Origin: Thomasclavelia spiroformis DSM 1552
Lineage (GTDB): Bacteria; Bacillota_I; Bacilli_A; Erysipelotrichales; Coprobacillaceae
DNA length: 64,000 nucleotides
Direction: 5' to 3'
NCBI RefSeq assembly: GCF_025149465.1
Contig: NZ_CP102275.1
Location: forward strand, 1,178,001 to 1,242,000
A program made the translations under genes and the position numbers. This document shows, in pieces, positions 49,179 to 63,910 of this stretch (its first letter is position 1; the number at the start of each line of letters is the position of its first letter). Below the pieces are notes generated by a model. The model did no database searches and was not told the DNA's origin. It worked only from the letters and a program-made list of their open reading frames with translations.

Positions 49179-49205
49179 TTCCTAAGTAAAAGAAGGAGAA
49201 TGAAT

Positions 49206-50627
49206 ATGTATAATGTAAAATCTAATAAGGCAGAAGAATTTATAGATGATCAAGAAATATTAGATACAATTGAATATGCAAAGAAAAATAAAAATAATCG
49301 AGAATTAATTTTTTCGTTGATTGAAAGAGCAAAAGATTGCAAAGGTTTAACACATCGTGAAGCAATGCTGCTTTTAGAATGTGATATTCCTGAAGCAATC
49401 AGGGAAATGGAAAAAGTTGCAAAAATGATTAAAGATAAATTATATGGAAATCGAATTGTTTTATTTGCACCATTATATTTATCAAATTACTGTGTTAATG
49501 GTTGTGTGTATTGTTCATATCATCAAAAAAATAAGCATATTGCAAGAAAAAAACTTACTCAAGAAGAAATAAAAAAAGAAGTAATTGCACTTCAGGATAT
49601 GGGGCATAAACGTTTAGCTCTTGAAACCGGTGAAGATCCAATCAACAATCCAATTGAATATGTTTTAGAAAGCATTAAAACAATTTATTCAATTAAACAT
49701 AAAAATGGCGCAATTCGTCGTGTAAATGTAAATATTGCAGCAACTACAGTAGAAAACTATCGTAAATTAAAAGAAGCCGGAATTGGAACTTACATTCTTT
49801 TCCAAGAAACATACAACAAAAAAAATTATGAAGCTTTACATCCAACAGGACCAAAACATAATTATGCATATCATACTGAAGCAATGGATCGAGCAATGGA
49901 AGGTGGTATTGATGATGTAGGAATTGGTGTGTTATTTGGTTTAGAGATGTATCGTTATGATTTTGTGGGGTTATTGATGCATGCTGAACACTTAGAAGCA
50001 GTTCATGGAGTTGGACCGCATACTATTAGTGTGCCAAGAATTTGTCCAGCTGACGATATTGATAAAGATGATTTTACCAATGCAATAAGTGATGAAATCT
50101 TTGAAAAAATAGTTATGGTTATTAGAATGGCAGTACCATATACCGGAATGATTATTTCTACTCGAGAATCAAAAAGAGTTAGAGAAAGAGTATTAGAATT
50201 AGGAGTATCACAAATTAGTGGTGGCTCTAAAACAAGTGTTGGTGGATATGAAAAACCTGAAACTGAAGATGAAACAACATCTGCTCAATTTGATACAAGC
50301 GATAAACGAAGTTTAGATGAAATTGTTAATTGGCTTTGTTCATTAAATTTTATCCCAAGTTTTTGTACTGCATGTTATCGAGAAGGCAGAACAGGGGATC
50401 GTTTTATGCAGCTTTGTAAATCTGGTCAAATTTCAAACTGTTGTCATCCAAATGCTTTATTAACTTTAAAAGAATATATTCAAGACTATGCAAGTGAAGA
50501 TACAAAAATAAAAGCTAATAAATTAATTGATAAAGAAATAAATAATATTACTAGTGCTAAAGTTAAAGAAATTTGTAAAAAACGTTTATCAATGATTGAA
50601 CAAGGAAAGCGAGATTTTAGGTTTTAA
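49206..50627 (+). CDS. hydG: [FeFe]-hydrogenase maturase HydG (tyrosine lyase)
   Basis: A 473-aa radical SAM enzyme that splits tyrosine to give the CO and CN ligands of the H-cluster. N-terminal cluster motif C96-x3-C100-x2-C103 (CVNGCVYC). A second cluster site near the C-terminus is CTACYREGRTGDRFMQLCKSG with CxxC and a distant Cys, as in HydG but not ThiH. ATG at 49206 is preferred (AAGGAG 7 bases upstream) over an ATG at 49200. It is followed directly by hydF. Confidence 0.95.
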   Translation: MYNVKSNKAEEFIDDQEILDTIEYAKKNKNNRELIFSLIERAKDCKGLTHREAMLLLECDIPEAIREMEKVAKMIKDKLYGNRIVLFAPLYLSNYCVNGCVYCSYHQKNKHIARKKLTQEEIKKEVIALQDMGHKRLALETGEDPINNPIEYVLESIKTIYSIKHKNGAIRRVNVNIAATTVENYRKLKEAGIGTYILFQETYNKKNYEALHPTGPKHNYAYHTEAMDRAMEGGIDDVGIGVLFGLEMYRYDFVGLLMHAEHLEAVHGVGPHTISVPRICPADDIDKDDFTNAISDEIFEKIVMVIRMAVPYTGMIISTRESKRVRERVLELGVSQISGGSKTSVGGYEKPETEDETTSAQFDTSDKRSLDEIVNWLCSLNFIPSFCTACYREGRTGDRFMQLCKSGQISNCCHPNALLTLKEYIQDYASEDTKIKANKLIDKEINNITSAKVKEICKKRLSMIEQGKRDFRF

Positions 50628-51818
50628 ATGAGTAATTTAAATCAAACACCTAGTGCAAATCGCATTCATATTGGTTTTTTTGGTAAACGTAACAGTGGAA
50701 AATCATCATTGATCAATGCATTTGTAAATCAAGAAGTATCAATTGTATCAAATGTGGCTGGTACAACAACTGATCCTGTTTATAAGGCAATGGAAATTCA
50801 AGGGATTGGTCCCTGTGTATTAATTGATACAGCTGGCTTTGACGATGTAGGCGATTTAGGAAATTTAAGAAATAGAAAAACTAAAAAAACAAGTGAAAAA
50901 ATCGATTTAGCGATTATCATATTTAGTGATGATATCTCTGAAGAATTAGCTTGGTATCAATATTTTAAAAATAAACATATCACTATAATTCCTGTAATTA
51001 ATAAAATCGATTTAGAAATAGAAGAAGAAATAATTAATAATGTAGAAAAAAACATTCAATGCAAACCAATTTTAGTAAGTACAAAAACAAAACAAGGAAT
51101 TACAGAATTAAAAAACAAAATAATTCAAAATATACCTAATGATTATGAAAAAGAAAGTATCCTTGGAACTTTAGTTAAATCTGGTGATTTAGTTTTATTA
51201 GTAATGCCCCAGGACATTCAAGCTCCTAAAGGGAGATTGATTTTACCACAAGTCCAAGTTATAAGAGAGTTACTAGATAAAAAATGTATTCCTGTAGCTA
51301 CAACTACAGATACATTGCAAGAAACATTAGCTAAATTAAATCAAGAGCCTGATTTAATCATTACAGATTCCCAAGTATTTAAGTATGTTTATCAAAATAT
51401 TCCTAAAAATTGTAAATTAACATCTTTTTCAGTTTTAATGGCCGGATATAAAGGTGATTTAAGCTATTATATCGAAAGTGTAAACAAGCTTAGTAATCTC
51501 AACAAAAATGCTAAAATATTAATAGCTGAATGTTGTAGTCATGTACCTGTAAATGAAGATATTGGCAGAGTTAAAATTCCAAGAATGTTAAAGCAACGTT
51601 ATTCAATTACAAATATCGATTTTGTAAATGGTAATGATTTCCCTGATGATTTAACAAAATATGATTTAATTATTATATGTGGAGGTTGTATGTTCAATCG
51701 CCGCCATATCATGTCACGTGTTGAACAAGCAAAAAAACAAAATGTTCCAATGACAAATTATGGTATTTTACTTGCATATGTAAATGATATCTTAGATAAA
51801 ATAGTATATGTAAAATAG
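50628..51818 (+). CDS. hydF: [FeFe]-hydrogenase maturase HydF (GTPase scaffold)
   Basis: A 396-aa GTPase that carries the diiron precursor and delivers it to HydA. P-loop GKRNSGKSS at 19-27, LIDTAGFDDVG (G3), VINKID (G4). The cluster-binding C-terminal part has C303-x-H305-x45-C351-x2-C354 (CSH ... CGGC). Start codon follows the hydG stop directly. The hydrogenase itself is not in the window. Terminator follows. Confidence 0.95.
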   Translation: MSNLNQTPSANRIHIGFFGKRNSGKSSLINAFVNQEVSIVSNVAGTTTDPVYKAMEIQGIGPCVLIDTAGFDDVGDLGNLRNRKTKKTSEKIDLAIIIFSDDISEELAWYQYFKNKHITIIPVINKIDLEIEEEIINNVEKNIQCKPILVSTKTKQGITELKNKIIQNIPNDYEKESILGTLVKSGDLVLLVMPQDIQAPKGRLILPQVQVIRELLDKKCIPVATTTDTLQETLAKLNQEPDLIITDSQVFKYVYQNIPKNCKLTSFSVLMAGYKGDLSYYIESVNKLSNLNKNAKILIAECCSHVPVNEDIGRVKIPRMLKQRYSITNIDFVNGNDFPDDLTKYDLIIICGGCMFNRRHIMSRVEQAKKQNVPMTNYGILLAYVNDILDKIVYVK

Positions 51819-53263: not shown

Positions 53264-54123
53264 TTATCGGTGGAATATATTTTTTCTTGGTTTAGCTTCT
53301 TTTTTTACTTCGTCAAATTCTTTTGAATACAATTCATGTTTTGGAATTTCCTGCATGATATATATGTGATCAAGTACATTGACATACAGATTCCCATCAA
53401 ATGCTTCAATAACCATACAATCTGTTCTGTTCTTTAAATAAACGGGTGTTCCATTCTCTGTCACGGGCAAATACAGCCTGTTTTGAAATCTGATACTATG
53501 CCCTGAATCAATTTTTCTAGGAGAAAGAACAGCTAAAGTATGATTGATCTTTTCAATTGATGGTTGCGTTTCAAATACTGATTTGGTAGTATTGAGATGT
53601 AGAGCAAACCTGTCATTGAATTTTTTTAGGTAGGATTTTAAAAATTTATTGGCTGACTCTATATCGGTTATATGAGCACGTCTGAGTTCAATAGGTAAAC
53701 GAGATTGGAAGGTTTGGTTCATTCTTTCGATTCTGCCTTTAGCTTGGGCGATGCTCGTTGTTTTAATATCAACGCCAAGATTATGACATGCATAGGAAAA
53801 TTGAGTGAAAGTGTCATCATCATCAAAAGTGTTGTTTTTCTTTTTATATTCAAAAACAGTACGTCTATCGGTATAAAACATAGCAGGGATACCATAATTG
53901 GTCAAAATCTGATAGAGGACATTATAATAACCATTTAGTGTTTCCTGAGTATCAAAATAAGCACCGACGACCTCACCAGTAGCATCATCAACAGCCAAAT
54001 GAAGATGCCAGATATGACCATCGATCCATTCAAAGCTGGAAGCATCCATCTGGATCATTTCACCCATATACTTGCATCTGGGTCTTCTAGGATGAGCATT
54101 TTTACTGTCAATGATAGAAATAG
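53264..54123 (-). pseudogene. Truncated IS1202-like (ISNCY) transposase
   Basis: The DDE integrase core is present: MIQMDASSFEWIDGHIWHLHLAVDDATGEVVGAYFDTQETLNGYY, with D(x)D and a later Glu in AKGRIERMNQTFQSRLP. The open frame continues upstream of the ATG at 54067 (visible as ...ISIIDSKNAHPRRPRCKYMGEM) and runs to about 54130. The normal N-terminal HTH (~130-150 residues) is absent: the frame is cut where the inverted-repeat segment starts. So it is an inactive remnant. GC and codon use differ from the host genes. A TGTCAAG end-like sequence lies at 53157. Confidence 0.78.
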
Positions 54124-55103: not shown

Positions 55104-56339
55104 TTATTTTATGATTTTATATTTTTTTAATAATGAAATACGTTTATTACCTAATTCAATTGCTTTTTTCATATCTAGATCAGTTTCTTTTTTACTGCGT
55201 TTATACCGATTAATAAAGCCTTTCATTCGTTTTATCCATACATATGGAAGTAGATATGGTTTATCATATAAAATAGGATAACCAGCTCTTAAATTTTTAG
55301 CTGATGGAAAAATAAGGGATATAAGTGATGTTTTTTTGTTTTGCTCATTTAAAACTCTTCTAGTCATCAAATTACTATAAACTCTTTCTTTAGTTGAAAG
55401 ACCAAATACACCACTATCAAAAATATCATCTAAAAAATCAGTATAATCTAATTTATCAATTAAATGTTTAGGATAATTGATATCACTCATTTTAACGTTA
55501 TAAAAATCTTCAAGTACACTATATATACAATGAATAAATATACTTATATTAAATTCATTTGCAAAATTAAATAATTTATCCCAATCAACAAATTCATAAT
55601 TTTTTATACTATACATCCCAATATCCATCAATTGTCTTAATCCAACTCCATTATTAATAAAATGTTTAAAACAATGACAAATCAAATAAAATAACTGATC
55701 AAATTCATTCATTACCTGGATTGAAACACCATCAATTTCAATATTTTTACTATTAACAAAAATAGCTTCAAAATACTTATTCAAAAAACCTAAATAAGAA
55801 TCATTGCCAAATAACTGTAAATGTAATTCAATACTTAAAGTAGAAACAGGATCAATAAATGTAGTAACTTGTACATTATCATTAATAACTTCATTAACTA
55901 CTTGATAATGATTATCAAGTAGTATGTGACACACTTTATTAAAATCTTCTTTTTTTATAATAATATCTTCATCACCAGATACTCGCCATTCTTTTTTATT
56001 ATAAAGTTCTCTTAAGACAATTCCTTTTGTAACAATACAATCAATATTATTATTTTTTATTTTTTGATAGATGTTTAAAAAAGCATCACTAAGTTGTATC
56101 TGTTTAACAACTAATGATGTACTTTCGTCTTGCCATTTATGTTTAAATTCTTCATCTGTTTTTAAAAATGATTCATTGGTTTTAATGGTTTCATATGCAA
56201 CTGGGAGTAATGAATGAATTTTTGAAAGTTCATATAGTTCTTGCCAATTTTCTTTAGTTAATTGATTGGATAGTTGAAAATCTGTATCATGCATAAAACA
56301 AGATATTATATGCATAAGAATTGTTTGTACTTGCTTCAT
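55104..56339 (-). CDS. Nucleotidyltransferase family protein (NTP_transf_5-like)
   Basis: A 411-aa protein. The nucleotidyltransferase core is visible at about 95-175: CIVTKGIVLRELYNKKEWRVSGDEDIII with acidic metal ligands D123 and D125, and later IELHL with the Glu. The C-terminal half is helical. In published lasso-peptide clusters related proteins act with an HPr-kinase-like enzyme as tailoring partners. Here it is divergent from the pqqD-rSAM operon and separated from it by a decayed regulator. Target unknown: a peptide or a glycan is possible. GGAGAA precedes the ATG. Confidence 0.7.
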   Translation of the reverse strand: MKQVQTILMHIISCFMHDTDFQLSNQLTKENWQELYELSKIHSLLPVAYETIKTNESFLKTDEEFKHKWQDESTSLVVKQIQLSDAFLNIYQKIKNNNIDCIVTKGIVLRELYNKKEWRVSGDEDIIIKKEDFNKVCHILLDNHYQVVNEVINDNVQVTTFIDPVSTLSIELHLQLFGNDSYLGFLNKYFEAIFVNSKNIEIDGVSIQVMNEFDQLFYLICHCFKHFINNGVGLRQLMDIGMYSIKNYEFVDWDKLFNFANEFNISIFIHCIYSVLEDFYNVKMSDINYPKHLIDKLDYTDFLDDIFDSGVFGLSTKERVYSNLMTRRVLNEQNKKTSLISLIFPSAKNLRAGYPILYDKPYLLPYVWIKRMKGFINRYKRSKKETDLDMKKAIELGNKRISLLKKYKIIK

Positions 56340-56376
56340 AAGTTTCTCCTATAAATTGTAAGTTAATGATTTTAAT

Positions 56377-56983
56377 TTATTTTTTATATTTAAATATTTT
56401 TTGACTAACTGGAATAGTAATCCCATTAATAAGTTTTATTTGGTATCTTTTTATTGATTTTATATAGTAGTTATTTACTAAATATCTTTTATGAACATGT
56501 AATAAAAATGAAACATATTTTGAAATATTATTTGTGGAACTTCTTATATTTATGCTATCACCAAAAGTATAAATAGTACATATTTTATCGTTTGATTAAA
56601 TATAAATAATCTCAAAGGGTAAAAGATAATGCGTTGTACTATTGAGATCTTAGAATTGGATTCGTTTATCTTTAGTATCATTGAAATCAATTGCTCTAAG
56701 ATATTGAAACCAAGATGTATATTCATTAATATTTGGAGTTTGATAAACACTATCAAATTCTAAAGGTATATCACGAGCATGAGAACTATGAATGTGTAAA
56801 AGAGTCCATGAATCTTTTTTCTTTTCCATAAATGTACATAAATTCAAAAGCACCGACCCACATAAAATTATCATCTATTAAATCGAAATATTTATTAGTA
56901 TCTTGATTATAAAAATCTTTAATAAATTGTCTACTTAATTCAACACATTCATTACTTAATAATTCTTTGTTTGCAAGCATCAT
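56377..56983 (-). pseudogene. Decayed LytTR-type regulator with SnoaL-like N-terminus
   Basis: Translated in pieces on the minus strand. First piece (56983 to ~56835): LANKELLSNECVELSRQFIKDFYNQ, SnoaL/NTF2-like. A frame change, perhaps with an internal deletion, lies in an A-rich stretch near 56826-56842. The second frame then runs through KDSWTLLHIHSSHARDIPLE and ends in a LytTR DNA-binding domain (HKRYLVNNYYIKSIKRY, then NGITIPVSQK). It is cut by two in-frame TAA codons, at 56650-56652 and 56596-56598, each explainable by one base change. So at least three lesions. An intact protein would likely have controlled the neighbouring operon. Confidence 0.72.
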
Positions 56984-57079
56984 ATCCTTAATTATATTCT
57001 ATCAAATAATATATATTTTTTTAAATATAATGCTTTAAATGTATTCTTGACGAGCAATTTTTCTATTTCACGAAAAAAT

Positions 57080-57109
57080 TTGACAAATAAACAATGCATG
57101 GACTACAAT
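57080..57109 (+). promoter_or_regulatory. Promoter of the peptide-modification operon
   Basis: TTGACA, an 18-base spacer and TACAAT; the pqqD-like start is about 58 bases further on. Confidence 0.65.
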
Positions 57110-57167
57110 AGAATATATAAGGATATTTAATCTTATATTTATTGATTTAATAAAAGGAGGGATGCAA

Positions 57168-57482
57168 TTGAAATTAAAAAGTGATTTAATTTTACGTGAA
57201 GTTGCAGATCAACACGTAATTGTTCCAGTTGGAAAAAGAGTACAAGAAGTCACTTCAATTGTTTATATTTCATCTTCAGCTGCATACTTATGGGAGTATA
57301 TGAAAAATAACGAATTTGAAATTGATGATCTTGTTAAAATGATAGTGGAACATTACGATGGAGTAAGTGAGGAAACTGCTCGTAAAGATGTTGAAGGCTA
57401 TATCAAACTATTAACAGATAATTATATTATCGATGATGGAAGGGTTCGAGGAAGCGTATATGTACGTGTCCCTAAAAAATAA
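57168..57482 (+). CDS. PqqD-family peptide-binding protein (RRE)
   Basis: A ~104-aa PqqD-like protein. Residues KSDLILREVADQHVIVPVGKR, then SSSAAYLWEYMKNNEFEIDDLVKMI and DVEGYIKLLTDNYII give the winged-helix RiPP recognition element, which binds leader peptides and presents them to the radical SAM enzyme. The start is probably the TTG at 57168 because AAAGGAGGG lies 8 bases upstream; the ATG at 57162 is only 1-2 bases away from that site. The stop overlaps the next start (TAATG). Confidence 0.87.
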   Translation: MKLKSDLILREVADQHVIVPVGKRVQEVTSIVYISSSAAYLWEYMKNNEFEIDDLVKMIVEHYDGVSEETARKDVEGYIKLLTDNYIIDDGRVRGSVYVRVPKK

Positions 57483-58543
57483 TGGCATATAAATTTGAAC
57501 CAGCATGTAATCGTATGGAATGGCTTGATCCATTTTATAAACAAGTATGGCAAAAAGCTTTCGATGATGCGATACCAATATCTGGAACTTTTGAACTAAC
57601 ACCAAGATGTAATTTTAATTGTAAAATGTGTTATGTTCATTTATCAGAAAAAGATATTCCAAAATATGGAAAAGAATTATCTGCAAAAAAATGGATTGAT
57701 ATTGCAAAACAAGCAAAAGAGGCAGGAACAACATGGTTATGTATTACTGGTGGAGAACCATTACTACATCCTGAATTTGGAAAAATATATACACAGTTAT
57801 CAAAAATGGGATTTTTTATTACTTTGCAAACAAATGCATCGCTAATTCCTAAATATCAAAAACTATTTGAAAACTATCCACCTAGATTGATAAAAATAAC
57901 ATTATATGGTTCAAGCAACGAAACATATAAAAAAGTATGTCAAATAGATAATGGCTTTACAAAAGTTCACCAAAGTATTCAATTACTAAAAAAGATGAAT
58001 ATACCAATTCAATTAGTAAGTACAATCACAAAACAAAATCTTGATGACATAAAAAAGATGGCTTTCTATGCCTATATTAATCAATTACCTTGGGTATCAA
58101 CCGGTGGTATAAAAAATTCTTTTAGAAATGAAAAAATAAATCTAGATGAAATAGTCGTCCAAGATAAAATTGATCAATATAAAAAAGAAGAAATCAAACA
58201 TTACTTAAATAATCCTATTAATATAGAAAGAAAACCATGTACGTATTGTCAAGATTATCGTTTAGGATATTGGATTACTTGGGATGGTAAAATGGGATTT
58301 TGTAGTTTTTTAACAGAACCAAATATCTCAATTGAAACATTAAGTTTTAATGAAGCGTGGGGGCAATTAATAGAATATGAAGATAACCTAGATTGGCCTC
58401 AAGAATGTAAAGCATGTAAGGTATCTAGTGTATGTTTTAAATGTGCTGCAACACTTGCAACACATTCTGGAAGCGTTAATAAAATAAATAATGAATATTG
58501 TCAAAAATTAAAGGGATATTATAAAGAAGTTAAGGAGGAATAA
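57482..58543 (+). CDS. Radical SAM/SPASM peptide maturase
   Basis: A 353-aa enzyme. The SAM cluster motif is C43-x3-C47-x2-C50 (CNFNCKMC), with ITGGEPLLHPEF at 88-99. A SPASM region follows with cysteines at 253, 256, 274, 309, 312, 318, 321 and 340, enough for two auxiliary [4Fe-4S] clusters. This is the pattern of RiPP enzymes that make thioether, C-C or C-O crosslinks, or epimers. Which of these is not readable. It sits in one operon with the PqqD-like protein and the next gene, with 1-3 base spacing. Confidence 0.88.
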   Translation: MAYKFEPACNRMEWLDPFYKQVWQKAFDDAIPISGTFELTPRCNFNCKMCYVHLSEKDIPKYGKELSAKKWIDIAKQAKEAGTTWLCITGGEPLLHPEFGKIYTQLSKMGFFITLQTNASLIPKYQKLFENYPPRLIKITLYGSSNETYKKVCQIDNGFTKVHQSIQLLKKMNIPIQLVSTITKQNLDDIKKMAFYAYINQLPWVSTGGIKNSFRNEKINLDEIVVQDKIDQYKKEEIKHYLNNPINIERKPCTYCQDYRLGYWITWDGKMGFCSFLTEPNISIETLSFNEAWGQLIEYEDNLDWPQECKACKVSSVCFKCAATLATHSGSVNKINNEYCQKLKGYYKEVKEE

Positions 58544-58546
58544 AAT

Positions 58547-58960
58547 ATGGCAACTGAAACAAACTATGTTAAAGTACCTCAATCAAATCAATATGATGGA
58601 GTAAGTGGGCACTCAGTATCAACTAGTGCAAATTCAATTCCATCTGGTGCAACTACCGTAGAAGGTTACTTTTTTCATTGGACCCCTGATGGTGGATTTA
58701 TAGGAACTGGCTGGTATAGTGGTTTTTCTGGTTCTCCTGTAAATGTATTTAATGGAGGAGTATATGCAAATAATGATGATGCATTCCAACAATATGTGAA
58801 CGGACTAGGAGAAAATCCAAATCTTAACAATGTATTTTCACAATGGCAACAATACCTTGAGCAATTAGAATCGCAAACAACAGGATTAGGTGCTAATTTA
58901 ATTTCGCGTCTAGTTATAGATATACAATCTAAAGAAATGAGTTGTGTTACAAAAGCATAA
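58547..58960 (+). CDS. 137-aa Gly/aromatic-rich protein, candidate substrate of the radical SAM enzyme
   Basis: Not recognised. It begins 3 bases after the maturase stop with AAGGAGG ahead of the ATG. Residues 1-38 are Ser/Thr/Asn-rich; 39-73 are dense in Gly, Tyr, Trp and Phe (GYFFHW, GGFIGTGWYSGF, NGGVY); 77-127 look helical; the C-terminus is KEMSCVTKA with the only Cys at 133. No signal peptide and no catalytic motif. Its place between the maturase and kinase/exporter genes makes it the best candidate for the modified peptide, though it is longer than most RiPP precursors. It could instead be an accessory protein. Confidence 0.6.
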   Translation: MATETNYVKVPQSNQYDGVSGHSVSTSANSIPSGATTVEGYFFHWTPDGGFIGTGWYSGFSGSPVNVFNGGVYANNDDAFQQYVNGLGENPNLNNVFSQWQQYLEQLESQTTGLGANLISRLVIDIQSKEMSCVTKA

Positions 58961-59072
58961 AATATAGTATACATTAGATTGAACGATCACAATATAAGTA
59001 TATTATATGTTTACATTTTTAATTATAAATTTTATATAATTTTGAATGATAAAAATCAATAACTAAAAAATT
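58961..59072. other. Short AT-rich gap
   Basis: No gene or clear terminator in 112 bases. A second short precursor was looked for and not found. Confidence 0.5.
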
Positions 59073-59864
59073 ATGAATAAATATAAAATTATCAATTTTG
59101 ACTTATATATAAAATACCCTTATCAAAAAAATTGCTGGAGAAAATTTAATGATTTTAATTTAGATAATTTTGATATAAAGATTTTTCTTTATCGTGGGTA
59201 TGATTTTTTTAATGGTCTACAGTATGTCGATCTTCAAGATACTAATACACATCTTATTATGAATGGTAATGATTTTATGGTTGTAAATGAAGATTGGAGC
59301 AAAGCAAATATTATAAAAATGAATCAGTCCGAAAGTTTTGATGCTTTTACAATGCAGTTGTTTTACACTCATGCTGTGCAAAAACATATAATACAAATTC
59401 ATAGTTCATTAGTTGAATATAAAGGTAAAGGAATTATGTTTTTAGGGCCATCTGGTATTGGTAAAACAACTCAGGCAGAGTTATGGAATAAATATTTAGA
59501 TGCACTTATTATTAATGGTGATTGTGTATTTGTTGAAGATAAAAGTAATGAGTTTATTGGATGGGGAACCCCATGGTGTGGTTCATCTCCATATTGTGAA
59601 AATAGAAATGTTCCTGTTTTAGGCTTAGTTGTTTTAAAACAAGGAAATGAAAATAGGATTAGGAAATTAGATGGTTTTGAAAAAGTGAGTGAAGTTAGTA
59701 ATAACATTATTTATCCTATGTGGTTAGAAAATGGGATGGATTTATGTTTAGATACTTTAGATCATTTGTTGAGAAATGTTCCTGTTTATGAGCTAACAAA
59801 TAAAGCTGACAAAGAGTCAGTTGAGTTAGTTAAGCAGGTGATATTTATAGATGAAAAGAATTAA
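59073..59864 (+). CDS. HPr-kinase-like P-loop protein
   Basis: A 263-aa protein. The Walker A motif GPSGIGKTT is at 125-133, followed by INGDCVFVEDKSNEFIGWGTPWCGSS and CENRNVPVLGLVVL, resembling the C-terminal kinase domain of HPr kinase. The HPr-binding N-terminal domain is replaced by ~110 unrelated residues. Related HprK-like proteins in lasso clusters phosphorylate the precursor peptide. A weak ribosome site precedes the ATG. It overlaps the ABC transporter gene by 14 bases, so they are probably coupled. Confidence 0.8.
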   Translation: MNKYKIINFDLYIKYPYQKNCWRKFNDFNLDNFDIKIFLYRGYDFFNGLQYVDLQDTNTHLIMNGNDFMVVNEDWSKANIIKMNQSESFDAFTMQLFYTHAVQKHIIQIHSSLVEYKGKGIMFLGPSGIGKTTQAELWNKYLDALIINGDCVFVEDKSNEFIGWGTPWCGSSPYCENRNVPVLGLVVLKQGNENRIRKLDGFEKVSEVSNNIIYPMWLENGMDLCLDTLDHLLRNVPVYELTNKADKESVELVKQVIFIDEKN

Positions 59865-61614
59865 GCATATTATTAAGAGGATTAAAGAAGGACGTTTAAA
59901 TGAATTGTTTGATCAATTGCTCTGGTTGAGTACTTATGTAAAGAGATATTGGATATTGATTGCAATTTATACGTTTTTGATGACATCAGGATCATTGTTA
60001 GGATTAGGAACAACAGTTGTTTCTAGAGATCTTGTTGATGTTGTAACTGGAGAGAGTTCTAAAAATCTTGTTTATGTAATTGGTATGTACGTTGGTACAG
60101 GTGTTGGTCAAATTTTTATTAATGTGATTAGAACACGGATATCGCTAAGAATTCAATTAAAGATTCAAACTGAAATTCGAGAAGATATTTTTAAACAGAT
60201 TATACAAACAGATTGGGAATATCTTTTGGATTATCGTACTGGAGATTTATTGTATCGAATTAATGGAGATGCAGGAATGGTAGCAAACAGTATTTTAACT
60301 TTTATCCCAACTGTCATCTCTGTTTTTATAAGTTTTTTTAGTGCATTTTGGATTATGATGAAAAATGATCCAATAATGGCATTAATTGCTTTGATGGGAG
60401 CACCTATTACATTATTTACATCAAGATATACAATGCGTAAAATGCGTGAGTTTACTAAGAAAAATCAAGATTTTTCAAGTAATAAAATGGCTTTTGATCA
60501 GGAAACATTTCAAAATCTGCAAATGATTAAAGCTTTTGGTCTAGTACCTAAATTTATTAATGATTTTCATGATGTACAACAAAAATCAATGAAAATATCA
60601 TTAGATCAAAACAAATATCAAACATTTGGTACAATTATCACTTCATTAGTTGGCCAAGTCATTGGTTATGCTTGTTATGGATACGCGCTATTTCGTTTAG
60701 CTAGTGGAGCAATTAGTTATGGAACGATGACAATGTTTGTAGGAATGGCGGGATCACTTAGAGGATCTTTTAGTTCAATTGTCAATCTTGTTCCAACATT
60801 GGTCAGAGCTTGTATTAATGCTCAACGAATCATTGAAATTATTGATCTTCCTAGAGAAGAAGTAAAAGATGATAAAGAAGCTCGTTTGATTTTAAATGAA
60901 GCTAGTAAATATGGTGTTGAGATTTATATGAATAATGTAAGTTTTTGGTACAAAGAAGGAAAACCAGTTTATGAAAACTCTTCTTTATATGCTCATCCAG
61001 GGGAAATAATAGGGTTGTTAGGACCTAGTGGACAAGGGAAAACTACGACATTGAATTTATTATTAGGACTATTTCATCCTCGTAAAGGTAGTTTAAAAGT
61101 TGGTAATCCTAATGGTTTAATGATTGATATTTCTTCAGCAACCCGCTGTTTATTTAGTTATATTCCTCAAGAAAACACAATGTTTTCAGGAACAATTGCT
61201 GATAATATTAAAATGCTAAAGCCTGAGGCAACAGAACAAGAAATTATTCAAGTTTTAAAAATGTCTTGCGCATGGGAATTTATTAAGGAATTAACTGAGG
61301 GAATCAATACCCCAGTAAGAGAACTTGGACGTCGTTTTTCACAGGGACAAAAACAAAGATTATCGATTGCTCGAGCCCTACTGGTTAGTACCCCAATTTT
61401 ATTATTAGATGAAGCTACAAGTGCTTTAGACATAGCTACAGAAAAGAAAGTATTAAAGAATATTTTAGAACATGACCCTCTAAGAATAATAATCGTAGCA
61501 GCGCATCGCCCTAGTGTTTTTTCAATGTGTCATCGTGTTTATAAGATTTCTAATGGTTCTATTCATGAAGCAAATCAAGAAGAAGTAACACGTTTTTTAA
61601 AGGGAGATGATTAG
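59851..61614 (+). CDS. ABC exporter (fused permease-ATPase)
   Basis: A 587-aa half transporter. Six transmembrane helices lie in the first ~320 residues. Then come Walker A GPSGQGKTT at 391-399, signature FSQGQ at 496-500 (a variant of LSGGQ), Walker B ILLLDEATSALD and a His switch in AAHRPSVF. No N-terminal C39 peptidase domain is present, so a leader, if any, would need another protease. It likely exports the product of the modification genes as a homodimer. Confidence 0.87.
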   Translation: MKRIKHIIKRIKEGRLNELFDQLLWLSTYVKRYWILIAIYTFLMTSGSLLGLGTTVVSRDLVDVVTGESSKNLVYVIGMYVGTGVGQIFINVIRTRISLRIQLKIQTEIREDIFKQIIQTDWEYLLDYRTGDLLYRINGDAGMVANSILTFIPTVISVFISFFSAFWIMMKNDPIMALIALMGAPITLFTSRYTMRKMREFTKKNQDFSSNKMAFDQETFQNLQMIKAFGLVPKFINDFHDVQQKSMKISLDQNKYQTFGTIITSLVGQVIGYACYGYALFRLASGAISYGTMTMFVGMAGSLRGSFSSIVNLVPTLVRACINAQRIIEIIDLPREEVKDDKEARLILNEASKYGVEIYMNNVSFWYKEGKPVYENSSLYAHPGEIIGLLGPSGQGKTTTLNLLLGLFHPRKGSLKVGNPNGLMIDISSATRCLFSYIPQENTMFSGTIADNIKMLKPEATEQEIIQVLKMSCAWEFIKELTEGINTPVRELGRRFSQGQKQRLSIARALLVSTPILLLDEATSALDIATEKKVLKNILEHDPLRIIIVAAHRPSVFSMCHRVYKISNGSIHEANQEEVTRFLKGDD

Positions 61615-61666
61615 TGAAATTGGATATTTAGATTTTTTAAAGATTTTTAATGCAAGGAGGATGTAC

Positions 61667-62485
61667 ATGAGGATTTTAAAACGTACAGTTATTGTAATAT
61701 TTTGCGTATCTTTATTAATTTTTATTATTGCAGTTGTAAAAGAATTAATAAGTAGTGATTCATCTATACCAGAAATAACAAGTGATCGTGATGTTTTAGA
61801 GGTTCCATGTAACTATACAGAAAGTCAGCTTTTAGAAGGATTAAGTGCTTATGATCAAGATGATGGTGATTTAACAAGTAAAATTGTAGTAGGAAGCATG
61901 TCAAGATTTATTAATCCTGGTGTTTGTAATGTTACTTATGTTGTCTTTGATTCTTCTAATCATTCAGCTAGCTATACACGAAAGGTGCATTTTAGTGATT
62001 ATCATGCACCAAGATTTAATACTAGTGAGCCATTAGTATTTACTGAAAGAGAAGGTAATTCAACCCTTCTTAAAGAAAGAATTATTGCAAATGATATAAT
62101 CGATGGAGAAATAAATGAATCAATTATAAATACAAGTAACGATATCAACTATTCAGTTGCGGGAACTTATCATAGTGTTTATGAAGTTTCTAATAGTTTT
62201 GGTGATACATCAACAATTGAGTTACCTGTTCATATTATTAAAAGCGAAAACAATCAAATTGACATTAAATTAACACAGGGAATTATTTATATAAATCCTG
62301 GTGAAACAATCGATGCTGCTGATTATATTGAAAGTGTTACAAGTGCTCAAGGTAGAACACTACATCGTGTTGTTAAAATTGAATCAAATGTTGATAATAC
62401 TACACCTGGTATTTATGAAATTCATTATCGTGCTAGTTATTCAGGAACAAGTGGTGAAACATGGTTAACTGTAGTTGTACAATAA
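61667..62485 (+). CDS. Membrane-anchored protein with Ig-like (DUF5011-type) domains
   Basis: A 272-aa protein. The chosen ATG at 61667 lies 6 bases after AAGGAGG; an ATG at 61661 is too close and longer frames overlap the ABC gene. One transmembrane helix (about 6-27) is followed by repeated beta domains (LLEGLSAYDQDDGDLTSKIVVG ... NPGVCNVTYVVFDSSNHSA, again IIANDIIDGEINESI ... AGTYHSVYEVSNSFGD, then a third). These DUF5011-like repeats are surface domains. It is in the same reading direction as the polysaccharide genes. Exact role unknown. Confidence 0.7.
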   Translation: MRILKRTVIVIFCVSLLIFIIAVVKELISSDSSIPEITSDRDVLEVPCNYTESQLLEGLSAYDQDDGDLTSKIVVGSMSRFINPGVCNVTYVVFDSSNHSASYTRKVHFSDYHAPRFNTSEPLVFTEREGNSTLLKERIIANDIIDGEINESIINTSNDINYSVAGTYHSVYEVSNSFGDTSTIELPVHIIKSENNQIDIKLTQGIIYINPGETIDAADYIESVTSAQGRTLHRVVKIESNVDNTTPGIYEIHYRASYSGTSGETWLTVVVQ

Positions 62486-62512: not shown

Positions 62513-63910
62513 ATGAATCAAGATGAAATTAATTTAGATTCAATCAACTATCGAGGTATTATTAGGGATTTATTAAAAAATTGGTGGATAATTGTCCTTA
62601 TCGTAATTTCTTTGTATCTAGCAGCTACAGGAATTGGAAAATTAGTTTATATCCCTGAATATACAGTTTCTACAACTTTAGTAGTAAATGCTCAAGGAAC
62701 TAGTGATACATATACTTCACTAGCAATGGCTAATGAAATGGCTGATATTATTAAAGAAGTTTTTCAAAGTGATGTTTTATTAGAATTAGTGGAAAATGAA
62801 ATTGGGAAAACTAATCAAGGAACGATTACATGCAATCAAATTCAAGAAACTAATTTATTAGTATTAAATGTTACTTCTAAAGATCCTCAAAATGCTTACC
62901 AATTTATGAATTCAGCATTAAAACATTATGATGAAGTTTCTGATTATGTGTTTACTAATGCTACATTACAAGTATTACAAGAACCTTCAATTCCAACTAC
63001 ACCATCAAATAGTTCAAGATTGATCAATTATCGTAACTATATCGCATTATTAGGTGGAGTAGCTGTCGCTGGAATTATTGTTTGTCTATATTTATTTCGT
63101 CATACACTTAAAAGTAGTGAAAACGCTACAAAATTATTAGATGGTCGAGTTGTTGGTGTGATTCCTTATGAAAAGAAAAAAAGAAATAAACATTTAAAAA
63201 AATCCAAACAATCATTGCTTATCAGTTCTCCTATTGCAAGCATGAATTTTGTTGAAGCAAATGGAAGAATGTCATCAAGAATCGAACATAATTTTGATAA
63301 ACATAATTTTAAAGTACTTTTAGTTACTGGAACTGGCGAAAATGAAGGTAAATCAACAGTTGCAGCTAATATTTGTTTATCATTTGTTGAAAAAAATAAA
63401 AAAGTATTATTGATAGATGGTGATTTTAGAAAACCAGCACAATATAAAATATTTGATAAAGAAGTTTTAGATACTAATCCTTTACAAGATGTTATAACAG
63501 GAAAAGCCACTTTAAAAGAAAGCATATATTTCAATAAAAAAAGCAATATCTACGAATTGTTTCTTTACCATGCTGTTGATGATCCCTCAAAATTAATGGA
63601 CGTTATTACTTTAAAAAAAATAATAGACCAGTTAAAAGAGCAATTTGATTATATTATAATTGACTGTTCACCTATATCTGTTTCCGTAGATGCAGAAGTA
63701 TGGATGGAAGTTGTTGACAGTACAATTTTACTTGTGCGTCAAGATTGGACAGATATTAGAATTATAAATGATACTGTTGATTTAATTTGGCAAAGCGACT
63801 GTGATTTTATAGGGTTTGCTTTAAATATGTTTATAGATGATGAAATTCGTCATAATGACTATGGTTATAGTTATTATGATTATAAAACCCATAGACATGA
63901 AAGTAGGTGA
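62513..63910 (+). CDS. Polysaccharide co-polymerase/BY-kinase fusion (CpsC-CpsD-like)
   Basis: A 465-aa protein combining a Wzz domain (two transmembrane helices at ~23-43 and ~175-195 bounding an external loop) with a cytosolic bacterial tyrosine kinase. The kinase has Walker A GTGENEGKS (273-281), Walker A' LLIDGDFRKP and Walker B IIIDCSP. The end is a tyrosine-rich tail (YGYSYYDYK) for autophosphorylation. It controls chain length and export of exopolysaccharide. AAAGGGGG lies before the ATG. Confidence 0.88.
   Translation: MNQDEINLDSINYRGIIRDLLKNWWIIVLIVISLYLAATGIGKLVYIPEYTVSTTLVVNAQGTSDTYTSLAMANEMADIIKEVFQSDVLLELVENEIGKTNQGTITCNQIQETNLLVLNVTSKDPQNAYQFMNSALKHYDEVSDYVFTNATLQVLQEPSIPTTPSNSSRLINYRNYIALLGGVAVAGIIVCLYLFRHTLKSSENATKLLDGRVVGVIPYEKKKRNKHLKKSKQSLLISSPIASMNFVEANGRMSSRIEHNFDKHNFKVLLVTGTGENEGKSTVAANICLSFVEKNKKVLLIDGDFRKPAQYKIFDKEVLDTNPLQDVITGKATLKESIYFNKKSNIYELFLYHAVDDPSKLMDVITLKKIIDQLKEQFDYIIIDCSPISVSVDAEVWMEVVDSTILLVRQDWTDIRIINDTVDLIWQSDCDFIGFALNMFIDDEIRHNDYGYSYYDYKTHRHESR

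Follow-up and report, generated by a model that had tools for sequence, protein, structure and literature searches.

The subject of this analysis is a cassette of genes that looks equipped to make and export a modified peptide, in the manner of the ribosomally synthesized and post-translationally modified peptides (RiPPs). It lies in Thomasclavelia spiroformis DSM 1552 (GCF_025149465.1), within a stretch of 64,000 nt at positions 1,178,001-1,242,000 of the forward strand of NZ_CP102275.1, which we refer to as the window. Six genes are of interest: a divergent nucleotidyltransferase-like gene (NTase) and, on the other strand, genes for a PqqD-like RiPP recognition element (RRE), a radical SAM/SPASM maturase, a candidate precursor of 137 amino acids (aa), an HprK-like protein and an ABC exporter (Table 1). 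The initial annotation had named and placed these six genes, and the list of open reading frames (ORFs), profile searches against Pfam and NCBIfam, and a structure model of the HprK-like protein bear it out on both counts. Its view of the locus as a RiPP-like cassette also stands, in that the locus combines a radical enzyme and an exporter with a stand-alone recognition element and a peptide-kinase-like protein.

Table 1. Features of the cassette and its surroundings (window coordinates; E-values refer to profile searches).
Feature	Position	Strand	Remarks
NTP_transf_5 nucleotidyltransferase-like protein, divergent accessory gene	55104..56339	-	411 aa; PF14907, E 4.2e-46
Regulator-like remnant, apparently decayed (begins SnoaL-like, ends LytTR-like)	56380..56983	-	broken frames; assigned by eye
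PqqD-like discrete RiPP recognition element	57168..57482	+	TTG start; PF05402, 1.5e-10
Radical SAM/SPASM maturase	57482..58543	+	353 aa; PF04055 Radical_SAM, 6.5e-22
Candidate precursor	58547..58960	+	137 aa; family of 20 members tied to PqqD
Candidate RRE-binding motif Y16-D-G-V-S-G in precursor	58592..58609	+	alternative Y7-V-K-V; Y-x-x-[VLIA] in all members
S33-G34, candidate kinase acceptor	58643..58648	+	17 residues past Y16; [S/T]-G spacing in family
W45 ... G49-G-F-I-G-T-G-W56 aromatic/glycine segment, candidate radical-modification region	58679..58714	+	conservation
C133, sole Cys of precursor	58943..58945	+	5th residue from C-end; family conservation
HprK-like peptide kinase candidate	59073..59864	+	263 aa; HPrK/PEPCK fold, P-loop
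MsbA-like ABC exporter	59851..61614	+	PF00664 + PF00005; nearest NCBIfam TIGR02204 MsbA_rel
Membrane-anchored Ig-like surface protein	61607..62485	+	PF16403, 2.5e-18; translation start probably 3' of 61607
Wzz/BY-kinase-type capsule regulator	62513..63910	+	PF02706, PF13614, TIGR01007

The genes from PqqD onwards are closely packed, as had been described: the PqqD and radical SAM genes overlap by 1 base, 3 bases separate the latter from the precursor gene, and the HprK-like and exporter genes overlap by 14. That said, the tight operon drawn over 57168-61614 needs to be corrected in two respects. Namely, a gap of 112 bases precedes the HprK-like gene, the sole loose joint of the cassette, and the run of genes does not end with the exporter but continues through the Ig-like and Wzz genes and beyond, these capsule genes having been missed. 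The choice of TTG 57168 as the PqqD start proved right, since the Shine-Dalgarno sequence runs straight into the ATG at 57162. Scans of the locus for promoters and terminators gave results at chance level only, the best plus-strand promoter-like match lying at 57080-57109, just 5' of PqqD, and Rfam found no RNA element over 54-64 kb of the window.

Neither Pfam nor NCBIfam has a family that matches the 137-aa protein. It belongs to a family of 20 members, some 100-140 residues long, which we find only ever beside PqqD and, in all but one instance, beside the radical SAM gene. The window precursor is about 20-30% identical to most of its relatives. Common to all 20 are an N-terminal Y-x-x-[VLIA] and a Cys placed 3-9 residues from the C-terminus, which is the sole Cys in 15; most carry a W plus a G-[FYIL]-x-[GN]...W segment. 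What is more, [S/T]-G occurs 16-19 residues past the motif Tyr in 18 of the 20, compared with a mean of 2.7 upon shuffling and with none of 20,000 shuffles reaching this count, where the shuffling was applied to the following 27 residues of members that are related to each other, the Tyr having been picked by eye in a few. Could the protein be an ordinary folded surface protein, with PqqD and the maturase acting on some other substrate? Its length and the low-confidence helices predicted for its C-terminal half would fit, but the exclusive linkage just described, the spacing of the motifs, and the small Cys-bearing ORFs that fill the same slot in sister clades make this, in our view, very improbable.

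The cassette is real, recurring and mobile. A scan with the window's radical SAM enzyme returned 76 loci. Over all searches, the cassette was found in 17 loci besides that of the window, in Erysipelotrichales, Lachnospirales, Oscillospirales and Actinomycetota, that is, in two phyla; these counts are based on draft assemblies and on a sample of genomes from each order. PqqD is present in every one of the 18 cassettes, and the series PqqD, maturase, precursor, HprK in all but one of them (L017), which is cut by a contig end. The exporter is found in 15 of the 16 loci with room for it. In the close loci, from Lachnospiraceae, Oscillospiraceae and Olsenella (Actinomycetota), the four genes keep the same order and are followed, save for a few exceptions and contig ends, by the exporter, and most loci run on into an Ig-like and two Wzz genes. 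The NTase, which had been counted as part of the cassette, is present in the window and directly precedes PqqD in three loci, but should be seen as accessory, as only 10 of the 18 loci have it. Linkage of the precursor to the maturase was also checked from the other side, with a profile built from an alignment of the small gene and run alone on 392 genomes from the order to which Lachnoclostridium sp. An181 belongs: it picked out five new genomes, and in five out of five the gene sits between those of the maturase and the HprK-like protein. Such recurrence is far above chance. The cassette therefore withstands the refutation test of the initial annotation, which asked whether the set recurs in other genomes and whether the 137-aa gene and the maturase are found apart. 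Searches of other groups gave no members beyond those already known, and a search of plasmids with the precursor gave no match; the weak matches in the same order (L003, L005-L008; E 4e-4 to 8e-3) were dismissed as chance, the cassette genes not adjoining them. Two arrangements deserve separate mention. At L015:2361-8113, two full PqqD-maturase-precursor-HprK sets stand in tandem with one common exporter downstream, the first of them belonging to a divergent sub-clade together with L032. At L111:8174-8839, a PqqD-precursor pair near Wzz, Ig-like and CpsB genes, on a 14-kb contig with neither maturase nor HprK, could be an orphan or a decayed cassette.

In the maturase, the CxxxCxxC triad (C43/C47/C50) and seven SPASM cysteines (C256, C274, C309, C312, C318, C321 and C340) are conserved. 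Those maturases that go with this precursor family fall into a single clade (19 rows, support 95/87), within which Olsenella groups with Gemmiger, nested with Oscillospiraceae, while the two relatives from the window's own family (L087 and L088) are placed at a distance from one another. Such a tree is most simply read as a sign of horizontal transfer. Among the genomes listed, the eight others that belong to the window's genus also lack the cassette. Separately, a transposase-like ORF, apparently incomplete, at 53264-54067 of the window, a few kb from the cassette, fits mobility; two genes next to each other at 49200-51818 read by eye as the [FeFe]-hydrogenase maturases HydG and HydF.

The closest solved relative of the maturase is SkfB (3e-13), and the precursor usually changes faster than its neighbours, with 32% identity between window and L087 against 67-76% for the enzymes, although the pair L010/L012 does not follow this trend. 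One may thus think of a secreted antimicrobial peptide of the sactipeptide or ranthipeptide kind, released by the exporter and diversified by conflict among gut bacteria, and the patchy distribution, including transfer between phyla, would suit it. Like the systems of SkfB, CteB and others, the cassette combines a full-SPASM radical SAM enzyme with a Cys-bearing precursor. That said, a single conserved Cys near the C-terminus takes the place of several, the precursor is long, a separate kinase-like gene is present, and a thioether is only a candidate here; moreover, no immunity gene was recognised, the exporter has no C39 peptidase domain according to Pfam, and capsule genes follow almost constantly downstream. 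We therefore hold an antagonistic role to be rather unlikely. Export of the C39/double-glycine type is ruled out by the lack of a C39 domain. An anti-phage system was rejected as well, given that PADLOC matches only generic radical SAM (pVip), ABC and P-loop proteins.

The HprK-like protein reaches only 9e-4 in Pfam, under the gathering score. Its structure model (pLDDT 91), for which the Foldseek matches listed are PEPCK and HPr kinase, confirms an HPrK/PEPCK fold. Invariant in the alignment are H110, the P-loop residues G128/G130/K131/T133, and D150. The catalytic Asp-Asp of HPrK, however, aligns with Gly-Asp in the window protein. Lasso peptide kinases are reported to require a set of His, Lys, Asp and Asp (PMC9266682); here the His, the Lys and one Asp are invariant, and the residue that is missing would be one of the two Asp of that set. 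Across the loci analysed, the kinases linked to a radical SAM gene read N-G-D almost universally, where HPrK has A-D-D; N-D-D or N-E-D is read in L060, in L065, and in a locus of the window genome that has no radical SAM gene (N-D-D).

The combination of HprK-like, PqqD-like and radical SAM proteins is not peculiar to this locus but widespread in related ones. More distant loci combine the three with short precursors that have a YxKP leader, a Cys-bearing core and, mostly, a C-terminal Ser. Four of them (L018, L045, L060 and L065) keep an SpI-like peptidase, assigned by eye from its GxSMxPxL region, and an exporter. These four and L024, with clusters running from PqqD to the ABC gene and short Cys-bearing YxKP precursors, appear to be LPP-like (see below) with a radical SAM enzyme, and may connect the clade of the window with LPP. 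In other distant loci, genes in the order HprK, maturase, PqqD stand ahead of CpsB, Ig-like and Wzz genes. A clade with this order (L051, L053, L059, L061, L044, L056 and L062) has Cys-rich precursors of 78-90 aa that end in Ser, and in some of its loci the neighbours include surface proteins of very large size as well as CpsB/Ig/Wzz genes. Finally, the radical SAM-less locus of the window genome (L090:4714-12107, which is C1:528713-536106) encodes a 44-aa candidate precursor with a YETPKI motif and Ser-Gly at Y+19, an NTase, an HprK-like protein, PqqD, an SpI-like peptidase and an ABC exporter. It looks like an LPP cluster, in which case one host would hold two such systems.

To call the cassette unfamiliar was likewise too strong. 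Namely, a set of RRE, HprK-like protein, NTP-transferase and MsbA-like exporter, lacking a cyclase and located among capsule genes, has been described since 2026 as that of the linear polyphosphorylated peptides (LPP; Popov et al. 2026, PMC13381572), and the same genome has an LPP-like locus, as just described. Besides these parts, LPP clusters have an SpI peptidase that cuts the leader; their kinase puts one to four phosphates on a Ser 18 residues past the motif Tyr, and the NTP-transferase had no visible effect in a heterologous host (PMC13381572). Precursors have 35-200 aa, the clusters are often in capsule loci, their distribution is patchy, and the word "radical" is nowhere used in that paper (PMC13381572). 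Our cassette shares with LPP the discrete RRE, the HprK-like kinase, the MsbA-like exporter, the lack of a lasso cyclase, the capsule setting, a precursor length within the LPP range and the patchy spread; an NTP-transferase stands in 10 of the 18 loci, that of the window included. The [S/T]-G at Y+16 to Y+19 recalls the LPP phosphoserine at Y+18, as a match of position only. With the lasso peptides paeninodin and pseudomycoidin (PadeK, PsmK, PsmN; PMC9266682) it shares an HprK-like tailoring kinase, a nucleotidyltransferase-like enzyme and a discrete RRE. A lasso peptide is nevertheless ruled out, since the window cassette lacks macrolactam cyclase and B2 protease, as the initial annotation had noted along with the lack of C39; nor do precursors of the clade have a conserved C-terminal Ser. 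An earlier grouping of HprK-like, PqqD-like and SPASM proteins is found in the SynChlorMet models of NCBIfam, where HprK-like ScmC and PqqD-like ScmD go with two SPASM maturases, ScmE and ScmF, compared with one in the window cassette; the cassette scores far under the cut-offs of these models (ScmC 2e-4, ScmE 4e-17, ScmF 1e-16). Among openly licensed papers, no report of PqqD, radical SAM and HprK cassettes was found.

What lies downstream is mostly capsule machinery. Past the window end comes another Wzz/BY-kinase gene, and after it those of a CpsB phosphatase (PF19567, 1.5e-61) and of an LCP ligase (PF03816, 1.2e-35); a second CpsB with neighbours of its own lies at C1:766390. Cassettes usually, if not universally, head such genes, the Ig-like protein being present (with Wzz/BY-kinase) in 13 of the 15 loci with room and CpsB coming next in several. 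It is possible, although we find it less convincing than a RiPP pathway proper, that the 137-aa protein, once modified, serves as a component or regulator of capsule or wall assembly rather than as a free natural product, with the HprK-like protein and BY-kinase/CpsB forming one phospho-control circuit and the peptide being held at the surface or joined by LCP to wall glycan. LCP genes beside the cassette in the window genome, L010, L012, L112 and L114 speak for this, and so do the lack of a dedicated leader peptidase in the cassette and of any glycosyltransferase in the window genome's block downstream of the cassette before unrelated genes start. On the other hand, L088 and L112 are without the Ig/Wzz block (an LCP gene lies directly upstream in L112), and L010, L013 and L115 have apparently ordinary glycosyltransferase genes of the capsule type close by, so co-location may be mere co-regulation. 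What is more, LPP and paeninodin clusters also occur in capsule loci, where their authors left the role open. A more specific version, which we consider quite unlikely, would have a radical-SAM-crosslinked, phospho-tailored peptide serve as a cell-surface component, exported beside BY-kinase/CpsB and joined at its tailored Ser to a wall or capsule polymer by the LCP ligase, the change from Asp-Asp to Gly-Asp reflecting a kinase with altered acceptor or chemistry.

Upstream of some other cassettes, intact pairs of histidine kinase and response regulator are found, immediately 5' in L012, L113, L114, L116 and L117, with a regulator in L016, and the window remnant may be of a similar type. The product could accordingly be a signal sensed by these systems (a GHKL kinase with a LytTR regulator, and related pairs), tying capsule expression to cell density. 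We judge this improbable: sensor pairs are missing from most other cassettes, no AgrB-like enzyme was seen, and the sensors are of two unrelated types (GHKL and His_kinase), which suggests that the regulators are replaceable. As a separate observation, L087 has a NusG-domain protein (L087:7822-8325) roughly 155 bases ahead of its cassette, which could point to LoaP-like processive antitermination control.

Weighing all this, we think it fairly probable that the cassette is a horizontally mobile system of the RiPP type, related to the LPP pathway and equipped with a radical SAM maturase in addition, whose product is exported near the capsule machinery. The PqqD-like element would bind the precursor at its N-terminal Y-x-x-[V] motif and hand it to the maturase, which would most likely make a thioether or C-C link via the Cys close to the C-terminus, the W...GGFxGxGW segment, or both. 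The HprK-like protein may phosphorylate, or otherwise phosphoryl-tailor, the [S/T]-G; the PF14907 enzyme, where present, could modify the phosphate further, the role proposed for PsmN; and the MsbA-like exporter would carry the product out, to act at, or be regulated with, the cell surface, as the usual position of the cassette at the head of an Ig-like/Wzz/BY-kinase/CpsB block, at times with LCP, suggests. Every modification, the leader cleavage, export and function of the product are thus things we infer from parts and motifs. Several lines of evidence lead us to this reading: the recurrence in two phyla with invariable placement of the newly found precursors; the single maturase clade and fast-diverging precursor, with its conserved Cys and [S/T]-G, next to a kinase fold that keeps active-site residues; the sister clades that pair PqqD, maturase and HprK with short YxKP precursors, some also with SpI and exporter; and the LPP precedent in capsule loci.

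It should still be noted that several findings weigh against it. The motif is N-G-D in 51 of the 64 HprK-like ORFs scored, so that phosphorylation is not to be taken for granted with Gly-Asp in place of the catalytic pair. LPP has the SpI leader peptidase, whereas the ORF lists of the cassettes contain none, nor a peptidase of any other kind, and an SpI homologue occurs somewhere in only 9 of the 18 host genomes. The LPP motif YxxPxV has its P in none of the 20 precursors, where Y-x-x-[VLIA] stands instead. In L111, PqqD and precursor are found with no radical SAM gene on the same contig. Finally, the AlphaFold model of the precursor is too poor to interpret (pLDDT 51), and the precursor is long. 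Lacking SpI and YxxP, and having a different kinase motif, the cassette is not classed as LPP; the radical SAM maturase and the near-C-terminal Cys set it apart further. In other words, it would work like LPP with a radical step added, as far as genes and motifs can tell.

While the set of LPP parts has been known since 2026, what looks new here is a precursor family with a radical SAM maturase beside LPP-like parts. The LPP/paeninodin branch of RiPPs would in this way be extended to radical SAM chemistry, and the precursor family is defined by residues that can be put to a sharp test, namely S33, W45/W56 and C133. In gut bacteria from two phyla, a peptide-modifying cassette is thereby tied to genes for the capsule, and the role of LPP-type peptides at capsule loci becomes directly testable.

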